From Acidimicrobiaceae bacterium (GTDB lineage Bacteria; Actinomycetota; Acidimicrobiia; Acidimicrobiales; MedAcidi-G1), in assembly GCA_002687745.1 (NCBI GenBank), contig NZBE01000004.1, positions 1 to 51,496 on the forward strand: a stretch of 51,496 bases of DNA, read 5' to 3'. Position numbers and translations under genes: made by a program. Shown here piece by piece: positions 39,642-44,033 of this stretch. Below the pieces are notes generated by a model. That model saw nothing but the letters and a program-made list of their open reading frames with translations, was not told where the DNA came from and did not search any database. How positions within the stretch are numbered: position 1 is the first letter of the stretch; each line of letters begins with the position of its first letter.

Positions 39642-40982
39642 GTGACCCACCGAGTCAGGTTTGCGCCATCTCCAACCGGCTTCCTCCACGTCGGAAGTGC
39701 ACGGACCGCCCTGTTCAACTGGTTGTTCGCCCGCTCGACGGGCGGCACCTACGTTCTGCGGGTCGAGGACACCGACGCCGAACGCAACCGTCCCGAGCTG
39801 ACCGAGAGCCTCCTGGCCGAACTCGAGTGGTTGGGCCTCGACTGGGACGAAGGGCCCCTCTACCAGTCCGAGCGCCGTGATCGCCACCGCGAGGTCGTCG
39901 AAGACCTCCTGGGCAGGGGCCTCGCCTATCTGTGTGATGCCGACAACGCCGAGGTGGAGGGCTCTTCGATAACCGATGGCATGGCCGTGCGGTTCCGGAT
40001 GCCTCCGGGCCGGACCGTGGAGTTTGAGGACATCGTGCGCGGTGGGGTCTCGTTCTCCACCGACGACCTCGAGGACTTCGTCATCTGGCGCTCAAACGGC
40101 TCACCCATGTTCCTGCTTGCCAATGCGGTCGACGACGCCGACATGGGAATCACCCACGCAATCCGGGGCGAGGACCTGCTCTCCGGGGTACCCAAGGTGC
40201 TCCTCATGCTCGACGCCATCGGCGCCCCACACCCGACCTACGCCCACCTTCCCCTCCTGGTCAACGAGCAGCGAAAGAAGCTCTCCAAGCGTCGTGACGA
40301 CGTCTCGATCGCCGACTACCGAGAACGCGGCTACCTGGCCGAGGCAATGGTCAACTATCTGGCGCTCCTCGGATGGGGCCCGCCAGACGACGTCGAGGTA
40401 AGGCCACTGTCGGAGATCGTCGACGTGTTCCGGATCGAGGACGTCAACAAGGCAGCGGCCTTCTTCGACCTCAAGAAGCTCGAGCACATAAACGCCACCT
40501 ACCTGAGGGCGCTGCCAAGGGCCGAGTTCATTGAGCGGGTTGGGCCGTGGATGGGAGAGGCCGCACCATGGCCGACCGAGAGGTTCGACCGGGGAGTGTT
40601 TGAGACCATGGCCGACCTGATCCAGGAGAAGCTGCGGACCTTCAGCGACACCCCCAGGTTCGTGGACTTCCTGTTCCTGGACGACCCTGTCGACGATCCT
40701 GATTCATGGCACAAGGCAATGGTGAAGGGAAAGTTCGCCGCTGAGATCCTCGACGGAACCGCAGCGGCATTCGCCGACTGCACCTGGGATGCCGAGGTGC
40801 TCAAGGACACGGTGATGCACGTCGGCGAGGCCGTCGGCCTCAAGTTGGGCAAGGCCCAGGCGCCTCTGCGGGTGGCCGTTACCGGCCGAACCGTGGGACC
40901 ACCGCTGTTTGAGACCATGGCCGAGTGCATGGATCGGGCCGAGGTGCTGCGCCGGATCGCCCGGGCAAGGGCCCGCCTGTAG
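39642..40982 (+). CDS. gltX: Glutamyl-tRNA synthetase
   Basis: Class I synthetase of 446 residues. The HIGH-type motif is PSPTGFLHVGSARTAL (residues 10-23) and the KMSKS-type motif KKLSKRRDD at about residues 211-219. The anticodon-binding C-terminal domain is helical and complete. Aminoacylates tRNA-Glu; in actinobacteria without GlnRS it also misacylates tRNA-Gln for later amidation by GatCAB. Start GTG at 39642 gives MTHRVRFAPSPTG, the usual beginning. Followed within 65 bases by its own substrate genes tRNA-Gln and tRNA-Glu, an informative arrangement. Confidence 0.96.
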   Translation: MTHRVRFAPSPTGFLHVGSARTALFNWLFARSTGGTYVLRVEDTDAERNRPELTESLLAELEWLGLDWDEGPLYQSERRDRHREVVEDLLGRGLAYLCDADNAEVEGSSITDGMAVRFRMPPGRTVEFEDIVRGGVSFSTDDLEDFVIWRSNGSPMFLLANAVDDADMGITHAIRGEDLLSGVPKVLLMLDAIGAPHPTYAHLPLLVNEQRKKLSKRRDDVSIADYRERGYLAEAMVNYLALLGWGPPDDVEVRPLSEIVDVFRIEDVNKAAAFFDLKKLEHINATYLRALPRAEFIERVGPWMGEAAPWPTERFDRGVFETMADLIQEKLRTFSDTPRFVDFLFLDDPVDDPDSWHKAMVKGKFAAEILDGTAAAFADCTWDAEVLKDTVMHVGEAVGLKLGKAQAPLRVAVTGRTVGPPLFETMAECMDRAEVLRRIARARARL

Positions 40983-41046: not shown

Positions 41047-41118
41047 TCGGGGGTGGTGTAATTGGCAACACAGCTGGTTCTGGTCCAGTCGTTGGGGGTT
41101 CGAGTCCTCCCCCCCGAG
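41047..41118 (+). tRNA. tRNA-Gln (anticodon CTG)
   Basis: A 72-base cloverleaf. Acceptor arm TCGGGGG pairs perfectly with CCCCCGA. The D arm is GTG...CAC. Anticodon arm GCTGG-TTCTGGT-CCAGT shows anticodon CTG at 41080-41082. The T arm is GGGGG-TTCGAGT-CCTCC. Discriminator G at 41118; the 3' CCA is not encoded (GCA follows). Confidence 0.95.
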
Positions 41119-41164
41119 CAAGAGGCGCAACCTCCGAGCGTCGCTACAATGCGCTGCTCCAGAG

Positions 41165-41203: not shown

Positions 41204-41276
41204 GCCCCGTTCGTCTAGAGGCCCAGGACGCCAGATTCTCAATCTGGTAACACGGGTTCGAATCCCGTACGGGGTA
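41204..41276 (+). tRNA. tRNA-Glu (anticodon CTC)
   Basis: A 73-base cloverleaf. Acceptor GCCCCGT pairs with ACGGGGT (one G-U). The D arm GTCTAGAGGCCCAGGAC is the canonical tRNA-Glu form. Anticodon arm CCAGA-TTCTCAA-TCTGG gives anticodon CTC. T arm ACGGG-TTCGAAT-CCCGT. Discriminator A at 41276, and the CCA end is encoded at 41277-41279, unlike the neighbouring tRNA-Gln. Confidence 0.96.
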
Positions 41277-41337
41277 CCACCTCTGTTCCGCTCCACCCCC
41301 CTCCGGGGCACCGGTGTGCCGCCGCCGAACTTTCCAC

Positions 41338-41366
41338 GGGACAAACCGTCATGGCGGGACTATGGT
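41338..41366 (+). promoter_or_regulatory. Candidate promoter of the downstream RNA
   Basis: GGGACA (41338-41343) and TATGGT (41361-41366) are 17 bases apart, a fair match to TTGACA/TATAAT. It lies in the gene-free stretch after tRNA-Glu and would start transcription near 41373. Confidence 0.4.
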
Positions 41367-41372
41367 TTCTGT

Positions 41373-41537
41373 CAGAGCGGGTAGCCGGTCCACTGGCCCT
41401 TAGGGGTCTGGGGGAGTGGTCCGCACAGACGGGTTGATACACATCGGTGAGCACGCCTGATTCCCGCCGAATTGGCGCCACCGGTATCGATCCCAGGTCA
41501 GCCCCTGGCTCCCGCCGCCGGGGGCTGACCGCTTTTT
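41373..41537 (+). ncRNA. Candidate structured small RNA, about 165 nt
   Basis: No open frame explains 41280-41604. From the candidate start near 41373 to the T-run at 41537 the sequence can fold into three domains: GGTCCACT...AGTGGTCC with one mismatch and an inner CCC-TTA-GGG; a long arm with GATAC...GTATC, CGGTG...CACCG and CGCC-GAATT-GGCG; and the terminator stem. A promoter-like pair precedes it and an intrinsic terminator ends it. I do not recognise it as 6S, SRP or tmRNA. It could also be a trailer of the tRNA-Glu transcript. Confidence 0.45.
41496..41537 (+). terminator. Strong intrinsic terminator
   Basis: GGTCAGCCCC (41496-41505) pairs perfectly with GGGGCTGACC (41521-41530), 10 bp, with an inner GGC/GCC pairing in the loop. 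It is followed by GCTTTTT. It ends transcription from the tRNA/sRNA region and comes before the minus-strand membrane protein gene. Confidence 0.88.
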
Positions 41538-41604
41538 GGGATGTCTGCCGATGACGTCACCCGCCAGCACCACCAGGGCCGGCAGCAGCCTCATAGGGCG
41601 CTCC

Positions 41605-41934
41605 CTAGCTGGCCCTGTCCGCTTTCTCCTGCGGCTCGCCCTCGTCTTCGTCCTTCTCCCAGAGGTCGTTTACGCGGTCCCAGCTCTGCTCGAGGCGCCT
41701 GTTCGCCTTCAGTGCGGTGGCGGCCAGCACCGTCACTAGCACGGTCACAGCAACGGCTGTGATGAACATTGAGAGCAGGGAACCGTTGTCGCTGTCGGGG
41801 ATGATGGAGGCCACGAGGGCGTTGATGGCGTCCTTCCACGCCAGGGCCACAACCAGGCCAAAGGCGGTCATGAGGGACGCCATGATGATGCCCCTGACAT
41901 TCAGCTTCTCTACGTGTTCCTGGAAGTCGCTCAT
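41605..41934 (-). CDS. Small membrane protein, DUF5654-like
   Basis: Protein of 109 residues with two transmembrane helices: GIIMASLMTAFGLVVALAWK near residues 15-34 and MFITAVAVTVLVTVLAATAL near 56-75, then a charged, Glu-rich tail. The layout and the AFGLVVALAWKDAINALV segment resemble the DUF5654 family, whose role is unknown. The start at 41934 is chosen because it places the first helix near the N-terminus; AAGGGA is 13 bases upstream, somewhat far. A longer frame to 42114 would overlap the esterase gene. Confidence 0.7.
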   Translation of the reverse strand: MSDFQEHVEKLNVRGIIMASLMTAFGLVVALAWKDAINALVASIIPDSDNGSLLSMFITAVAVTVLVTVLAATALKANRRLEQSWDRVNDLWEKDEDEGEPQEKADRAS

Positions 41935-42035: not shown

Positions 42036-44033
42036 TTAATGGAACAGGGCGCGATCCAGGAAGTCGAAGATCGCCTGGCCGATAGGACGACCGTCGGCAG
42101 TGGTTTCTTCCCACTCATCCCAGATGTGTGAGACATCCTCGAGCGGATGAAACTCGTAGGTGATCCCTGCGGCGATGGTTGCGTCGATGATGCTCACGGC
42201 GTTGGAAAATGCCGTGTCACCACCATCCTCGGTTCCGTGTGCGACGAACAACATGGGTTCACCAGATCCGATTACAGCACCCCTGTCGCATGAACTGGTA
42301 AGCACCCCCGAGAGGTCGATGACAGCGGCGATAGGTGGTCGATTGATTCCAAATTTGTCGGTGCAATAGGCGACGGTAAGCGCGGTGATCGCACCAGCCG
42401 AACCGCCCTTCAGGACGATTCGATCTGTGTCCAGGTTCAACTCATTGGCGTTGGCGATCAGGTAGTCCAGAGCCGTCAGGGTGTCGTCCGTGGCTGCCAC
42501 GAAGGCCCGTACTAGGGCAGGCCCTTCTGAGCCTCCGACAGCGGCGAGGAGACTGTCTACCCGGACACTGGGTGCAGGGTTGTCACGGGCCAATCGGTAG
42601 TCAATGGATGCGACCACCCAACCTCGTGCTGCGGCCTCCCTGACACCGCGTTTCTCCTCTTGTGACGAACAGGACGCTCGTTGGCCTGAACTGAAGGCAC
42701 CACCGTGGATGTGGATGAGCAGTGGTCGGGGGCCCTCATCGCCGGTGTCAGGTATACAGAGATTTAGGAGTAGTTCAACCGAGCTGCCGTCAGCTAGCGC
42801 TCCTGTTCCATAGATAATCCCATCGGAGGCAGTGAATTCGAAGGTCTCACCCAGAGATGGAGTGAAGGCGGCAGGGCCAAGCGTGTCAAGGGTTTGTTGA
42901 GAGGGTCCTGTCGGCGCGGAAATTGTCGGTGGCGGATTGGCCGGCTCGGCCCCTATTCCTCCGGGGGAGGGAATGGCTCCACCCTGACCTGGCTTGGGCA
43001 GGTGAAGCATCCAGTCACTGCCAGAGATCCTGGCAGGACCACAGGTCTGGCTACGGATCGGCTCAGAGGGCTCCCAGTTGCGACCCTCAAATGAGAGGTG
43101 GGTCTCCAACATTCCATCACCGCAAACGGTCAAGCGGATAGAACCGTCGGATTCCATAACAAGGTCGGGATCGCCACCTGGCACTGAAGCCGTCATTTCG
43201 AATCCACCATCTGGGGTTCCGACGAAGAGTTGGATCACCTGTTGGTTGAAGACCTTGGCTGCCAAGACCCACTCGTTGTCGACGACCACCGCCGGATCCT
43301 GGACTCCGGACTCGTCTAGCAATACCTGAAGGGTTTCGAAGTCCTGGCCGTTTTCGGAGCGCATGAGGCAGATCGGTCCCGGCTGACGAGGCGTTCCCGT
43401 GATGCGCATTCCGTTTACAGCCGCCAAGCCGATTCCACCATCCGGGAGCCGGAAGACGTCCGGGTCGATGAAGCCCTCAAACACTTCACCGTCAACCGAG
43501 ATCGGTCCTAGGTCGGTGAACAGGTCATTGGCAAAGGTGGCGTGGTGCGGAACGTTGTCTCGGGCATTCATGGCCCAGATATGGGCGACACCGTCAATCA
43601 TTAGCCCGTCACCCACCGACCAACCGGTACCAAGTAGTTGCTGGTTAGCAATCTGGTTATCCACGAGGCGTCCGATCCAGAGCTCGTGCTCGGAGATGCC
43701 CTCCGCGAAGCCGGGTGTCCGGCGTTTGATGTCCGAACAGCCCGGGATCAACGGATTGCTGGCAACCGCCTCTGTGCTGGTTGCGGTCGGGTCGGTGACC
43801 GTGCTGATCGGCGGTGTCGTCGTGGGGGGAGTGGTGGTGGCTGGAGTTTCACTGCTAGTTGGTGTGGTTGATGTAGTTGGTGTCGTCGTGGGGGGAGTGG
43901 TGGTGGCTGGAGTTTCACTGCTAGTTGATGTGGTTGACGTGGTTGCCGTTGTGGCTACTGGTTCCATGGAGATGGCATCTCCTGAACAGCCCGCACTCAA
44001 CAGCACAGCAAACAGGAAACAACTTCTTTGCAT
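42036..44033 (-). CDS. Surface lipoprotein: propeller-like domain fused to esterase
   Basis: Lipoprotein of 665 residues. The signal peptide ends in lipobox SAGC (residue 16). A Thr/Pro/Ser linker with a 22-residue tandem duplication follows (about residues 30-75). Residues 95-350 look like a five-bladed propeller of the GH43/GH32 style (FIDPDVFRLPDGGIG, VQDPAVVVDNEWVLA, GGDPDLVMESDGSIRL). The C-terminal 270 residues are an alpha/beta esterase with HGGAF at 443-447, nucleophile GGSAG (Ser545) and His636 in VSHIWDEW. GAGGA is seven bases before the ATG. The two-domain arrangement is unusual; it may act on an acylated glycan outside the cell (inference). Base composition is AT-richer than men or pnt. 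Confidence 0.8.
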   Translation of the reverse strand: MQRSCFLFAVLLSAGCSGDAISMEPVATTATTSTTSTSSETPATTTPPTTTPTTSTTPTSSETPATTTPPTTTPPISTVTDPTATSTEAVASNPLIPGCSDIKRRTPGFAEGISEHELWIGRLVDNQIANQQLLGTGWSVGDGLMIDGVAHIWAMNARDNVPHHATFANDLFTDLGPISVDGEVFEGFIDPDVFRLPDGGIGLAAVNGMRITGTPRQPGPICLMRSENGQDFETLQVLLDESGVQDPAVVVDNEWVLAAKVFNQQVIQLFVGTPDGGFEMTASVPGGDPDLVMESDGSIRLTVCGDGMLETHLSFEGRNWEPSEPIRSQTCGPARISGSDWMLHLPKPGQGGAIPSPGGIGAEPANPPPTISAPTGPSQQTLDTLGPAAFTPSLGETFEFTASDGIIYGTGALADGSSVELLLNLCIPDTGDEGPRPLLIHIHGGAFSSGQRASCSSQEEKRGVREAAARGWVVASIDYRLARDNPAPSVRVDSLLAAVGGSEGPALVRAFVAATDDTLTALDYLIANANELNLDTDRIVLKGGSAGAITALTVAYCTDKFGINRPPIAAVIDLSGVLTSSCDRGAVIGSGEPMLFVAHGTEDGGDTAFSNAVSIIDATIAAGITYEFHPLEDVSHIWDEWEETTADGRPIGQAIFDFLDRALFH
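43813..43944 (-). repeat. 66-bp tandem duplication in the lipoprotein linker
   Basis: Two copies of a 66-bp unit, 43813-43878 and 43879-43944, differ at only a few positions near their ends. The period is 22 codons and encodes a SSETPATTTPPTTTP-type block. The near identity points to a recent duplication, and copy number may vary between strains. Confidence 0.85.

Follow-up and report, generated by a model that had tools for sequence, protein, structure and literature searches.

The locus lies within a stretch of 51,496 nucleotides (51.5 kb; hereafter the window) from a host genome of 1.85 Mb in 38 contigs. A putative small RNA gene begins 93 nt after tRNA-Glu on the same strand, and the DUF5654 gene, on the other strand, ends 67 nt from it. 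The features of the region are the following:

39642–40982, plus strand: gltX, with the Pfam domain tRNA-synt_1c
41047–41119, plus strand: tRNA-Gln
41204–41279, plus strand: tRNA-Glu
41338–41343, plus strand: predicted −35 element GGGACA, aligned in the ten homologues
41361–41366, plus strand: predicted −10 element TATGGT, TANNNT in 10/10 homologues, at a spacer of exactly 17 nt
41373–41537, plus strand: putative small RNA gene of about 165 nt, with a likely 5′ end at CAGA (41373/41374)
41377–41424, plus strand: hairpin 1, with a variable loop, a 7-nt indel between genera and a mostly conserved 5′ strand CCGGTCC
41431–41493, plus strand: hairpin 2, a long stem with internal loops and compensatory pairs
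41462–41470, plus strand: loop motif of hairpin 2, TCCCGCCGA; unpaired probability of CCGCC 0.99–1.0 in 10/10 homologues (here and for hairpin 3, Ns in G030 were taken as A)
41496–41530, plus strand: hairpin 3, the terminator stem, of 14 pairs, three of them changed on both sides
41510–41516, plus strand: loop motif of hairpin 3, TCCCGCC; unpaired probability of CCGCC 1.0 in 10/10 homologues
41531–41537, plus strand: GC followed by a T5 tail, read from the sequence
41605–41934, minus strand: DUF5654 gene, convergent

The initial annotation had placed a candidate structured small RNA at 41373–41537; these coordinates were accurate, and the stretch was gene-free as described, with no convincing plus-strand ORF across it. 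At 42036–44033 (minus strand), the window also encodes an alpha/beta hydrolase-like protein in which an apparent lipoprotein signal precedes a long N-terminal stretch of Thr/Ser/Pro repeats (43700–44033); stretches of this type also occur within large proteins encoded on L004 and L038.

A promoter-like pair of boxes had been noted earlier; a generic sigma-70 scan detected no promoter, but the comparison of ten homologues revealed a conserved one. The −35 element reads GRGACA in nine of the ten homologues and GTGACA in G030, whose promoter (GTGACA-N17-TAAGTT) was read from the printed sequence, while the other nine matched the homologue-derived pattern by script. This pattern occurs a single time in the whole window. 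Moreover, CAGA (or CGAA) was found 5–7 nt 3′ of the −10 element in the ten homologues compared, and from these alignments we infer that transcription starts near CAGA. At the 3′ end, the stem of the proposed intrinsic terminator with a T-run comprises 14 pairs, not 10, followed by GCTTTTT. Hairpin 3 was present in all ten homologues and the T5 in six, the T-run being lost or broken in G014, G018, G009 and G030. Since the hairpin 3 sequence is kept in these four, it has probably been retained for more than termination.

As a single sequence, 41373–41537 was predicted to fold into three separate hairpins with an energy of −88.1 kcal/mol; its shuffled versions averaged −70.05 (z −4.2), and none of 200 was as good. 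The nested complementary segments that had been pointed out (GATAC/GTATC, CGGTG/CACCG and CGCC/GGCG) all fall within hairpin 2. The fold was compared in an alignment of ten homologues (A2; 165–174 nt) built without structural guidance, which contained the window, G003, G006 and G004 from the first genus (g1), a contig of a Phycisphaerales MAG, and G014, G026, G030, G018 and G009 from the second genus (g4). RNAalifold kept 38 pairs, and 99.2% of the 380 cells (38 pairs in ten homologues) were paired; changes on both sides were found in 18 cells, belonging to 6 of the 38 pairs. None of 500 shuffles reached the observed paired percentage, number of doubly changed cells or covariation score; the number of doubly changed pairs was reached in 30 of the 500, and further pair types were no more numerous than in the shuffles (491 of 500 were as high). 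When partners were slid by 1–3 columns, pairing fell to 29–54%, a control somewhat biased in favour of the consensus structure, which was drawn from the same alignment. A lack of structural conservation in relatives had been named beforehand as one result that would speak against the candidate; the fold is conserved and compensatory changes are present, which together with the RNA's own promoter and the synteny described below support a structured small RNA.

Over nucleotides 59–165 of the RNA, the window differs from G004 at 1 of 107 positions, from G003 at none and from G006 at 2; over nucleotides 1–58, these three differ from the window at 3–6 of 58 positions. At the third codon positions of gltX, 119 of 357 (33%) differ between the window and G004. 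This comparison shows strong purifying selection on the putative sRNA.

The distribution of the RNA was analyzed with two covariance models, R1 and R2, under which the window, itself among the sequences used to build them, scores 188.1 and 174.5 bits. Matches of 92–190 bits were obtained in nine genomes plus one contig. Across the 48 genomes of the family, R1 found the RNA in four of the seven g1 genomes and five of the six g4 genomes, all at 92 bits or more, and in none of g2 (8 genomes), g3 (9), g5 (17) and g6 (1) once a weak match in G022 was dropped. That match (28.7 bits) was not recovered by R2, and its other strand reads by eye like what we take to be an alanyl-tRNA synthetase. Weak family matches of R2 with E of 0.02–1 (G001, G010, G034, G067, G070 and G071) were left out of the counts. 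The RNA is missing from G001, G002 and G005 of g1, possibly because of incomplete assembly, since in G001 and G002 gltX likewise went unmatched at the threshold applied, and the G005 contig ends 678 bases past tRNA-Glu. R1 gave five further matches across the order's 298 genomes, at 28–30 bits and near chance level, and R2 matched six of 395 class genomes, all from g1 and g4; in these order- and class-wide searches only 7–9 candidates were scored per genome, so that more distant relatives could have escaped detection. Inspection by eye of the DUF5654 neighbourhoods, five in g5 and four in g3, showed no such RNA, and most of the g5 genomes read have a plain hairpin after tRNA-Glu. In viral contigs, an exact-motif scan gave nothing, nor did a search with the DUF5654 protein turn up a relative. 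The Phycisphaerales-MAG contig (L038; DOVP01000006.1, 86–2303) matched at 173.9 bits, and its DUF5654 protein is nearly identical to that of the window; because of this likeness it was taken as an Acidimicrobiia relative that had probably been misbinned. The RNA family looks confined to a small group of marine actinobacteria.

No known RNA class had been recognised from the letters, and the Rfam covariance search likewise found no family for the RNA: the searches at gathering level, of the window and of eight homologue loci, and at E up to 10, of the region, gave only tRNAs and chance matches to miRNA, snoRNA and lncRNA families. The 6C RNA (RF01066) was not listed for the region at E up to 10, and in the RNA's own genome nothing exceeded the 6C gathering threshold of 47 bits, the best match being 22.9 bits, elsewhere. 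The 6S RNA (RF00013) gave no covariance match for the region, and no 6S was found over cut-off in any of seven genus genomes; the present RNA is like 6S in its similar length and free-standing gene, but has separate hairpins, with no end-joining helix, no large central bubble and no long rod. In Staphylococcus, RsaE and RsaA carry unpaired UCCC in loops that are aimed at Shine-Dalgarno sequences. Unpaired UCCC in loops is shared by the present RNA, which comes from a different phylum and has no Rfam match. With its own promoter, conserved fold and terminator and no ORF, and with an intact T-run in six of ten homologues, it has the features of a free-standing terminated sRNA; we regard it as a new family, of a known sort.

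Both loops of hairpins 2 and 3 contain an invariant CCGCC core in all ten homologues, mostly as UCCCGCC, while the hairpin 3 loop of G014 reads ACCGCC. The loop of hairpin 1 varies in both length and sequence. Among 368 simple hairpins on both strands of the window, CCGCC loops occurred in four, two of which are hairpins 2 and 3. This rarity, combined with the invariance, suggests that the twin loops are working parts of the RNA.

B11 of Mycobacterium abscessus is reported to have two C-rich loops of 6–7 C, either of which can repress a reporter whose 5′ UTR is G-rich, and compensatory mutations rescue repression (PMC10470900). The 6C/B11 RNAs of mycobacteria and other actinobacteria resemble the present RNA as small actinobacterial RNAs with two C-rich hairpin loops, and differ from it in that the loops here read CCCGCC, with an interrupting G, instead of at least six C in a row. 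There are, moreover, three hairpins in about 165 nt here, against the 75-position 6C model. Based on this analogy, pairing in trans through the twin loops was proposed. The sRNA would be made from its own housekeeping-type promoter and ended at hairpin 3, and its single-stranded CCGCC loops would pair with G-rich (GGCGGG-like) stretches of mRNAs, blocking or changing their translation; the redundancy of two loops would give robustness or more than one target.

Targets were sought in partial samples of three genomes, with crude gene calls (the longest ORFs, with a minimum of 150 aa). Loop complements of 8 nt within 25 nt of starts were found in 8 of 300 genes of G000, against a control mean of 4.67, a count reached or exceeded in 25 of 200 controls; the corresponding counts were 2 of 240 in G004 (control 3.8) and 3 of 302 in G006 (control 6.4). 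One candidate, secA, has a 9-nt loop complement directly before its ATG that is conserved in G000 and G006; it was rejected, the match being lost in G009, a carrier of the RNA, which has TCGGCGTCG there. The secA comparison covered G000, G006 and G009; in the G004 and G018 samples the gene was not found. As a separate observation, the secA leaders (L143, 15660–15741; L167, 13119–13201; L224, 15990–16071) carry GGTAGCCTCGGCG in two genera, located a few nucleotides upstream of the start codon, which looks like the −10 box of a nearly leaderless secA mRNA.

Taken from the sequence comparisons, the locus is very probably an independent structured sRNA gene. Our main reading, to which we assign a probability of roughly 0.48, is that of a free-standing non-coding sRNA acting in trans through twin-loop pairing with mRNAs; action by loop base-pairing, argued from analogy, falls somewhat short of an even chance. 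Because complementary sites were not enriched and secA failed in the second genus, we only infer this mechanism. The RNA is presumed to be transcribed and trans-acting. A more specific view can be offered tentatively, namely that this is a lineage-restricted family of marine Acidimicrobiia in which twin-loop regulation of the 6C/B11 kind arose independently, the two identical CCCGCC loops being interchangeable seeds against mRNAs, one of which would also form the loop of the terminator.

The main rival to loop pairing is a protein-binding role, in which the CCCGCC loops would be protein sites, or the RNA would sequester an enzyme in the manner of 6S or Ms1, with no mRNA pairing. Loop conservation is just as compatible with protein binding, and here both loops and much of the stem sequence are invariant; complementary start sites were not enriched, and no recognised 6S fills such a role in the seven genus genomes. 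We nevertheless consider this role rather unlikely: the fold is not of the 6S type, no candidate protein is known, and the RNA was not found in the family's four other genera, which would be unexpected if its role were a general one.

In a locus of variable make-up, the RNA is what stays the same. The distance from tRNA-Glu to the RNA is 70 nt in G004, 4.3 kb in G003 and about 740–790 in the five g4 genomes; no tRNA occurs on the stretches compared of G006 and the MAG contig. An opposite-strand histidine phosphatase gene lies between tRNA-Glu and the RNA in G014, and an ABC transporter gene (G003), a luciferase-like monooxygenase gene (G006) or a dihydrodipicolinate-synthase-like gene (MAG contig) lies between or just upstream of the RNA. 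On the other side, the spacing between the RNA and DUF5654 varies as well, with values of about 70 nt up to 2.6 kb across homologues. Gene content flanking the RNA was also seen to vary between close relatives in window 41280–41605, L084, L087, L086 and L038, the flanking genes including ABC transporter, luciferase-like and DHDPS-like genes and genes for large secreted-looking proteins without a Pfam match. The tRNA-Glu/DUF5654 interval may be like a small insertion hotspot.

It is very unlikely that the locus is a DNA-level or termination element of which only the terminator hairpin matters, for gltX-tRNA read-through or for the convergent DUF5654. Hairpin 3 is indeed the strongest part, and DUF5654 ends close by on the other strand in the window; but conservation extends to hairpin 2 and the promoter, four homologues have no intact T-run, genes separate the RNA from DUF5654 in G004 and the MAG contig, and in relatives that lack the RNA, as judged by eye, tRNA-Glu is directly followed by a different, plain hairpin. 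The proximity of tRNA-Glu on the same strand would fit a trailer of the tRNA-Gln/tRNA-Glu transcript, a reading that is most improbable, since other genes intervene in several relatives (4.3 kb in G003, the opposite-strand gene in G014) while the RNA keeps its own conserved promoter; it is neither always directly 3′ of a tRNA nor promoterless, and the synteny contradicts a trailer. It is scarcely credible that the RNA encodes a very small protein, whether as a plain mRNA or with a dual function: in the second genus, which is GC-rich, some frames remain open, but all three plus-strand frames are interrupted by stops in the window and in G003, G004 and G006, and 1- and 7-nt indels occur among the homologues.

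An open-licence literature search found no paper joining Acidimicrobiia, Acidimicrobiales or Candidatus Microthrix with small or non-coding RNA, and the RNA may thus represent one of the first small-RNA families of marine Acidimicrobiia to be well supported. If the trans-acting, twin-loop mechanism is true, the C-rich two-loop design of the mycobacterial 6C/B11 RNAs would recur in a distant actinobacterial class, and RNA regulation in GC-rich bacteria could be put to a clear test in this family.
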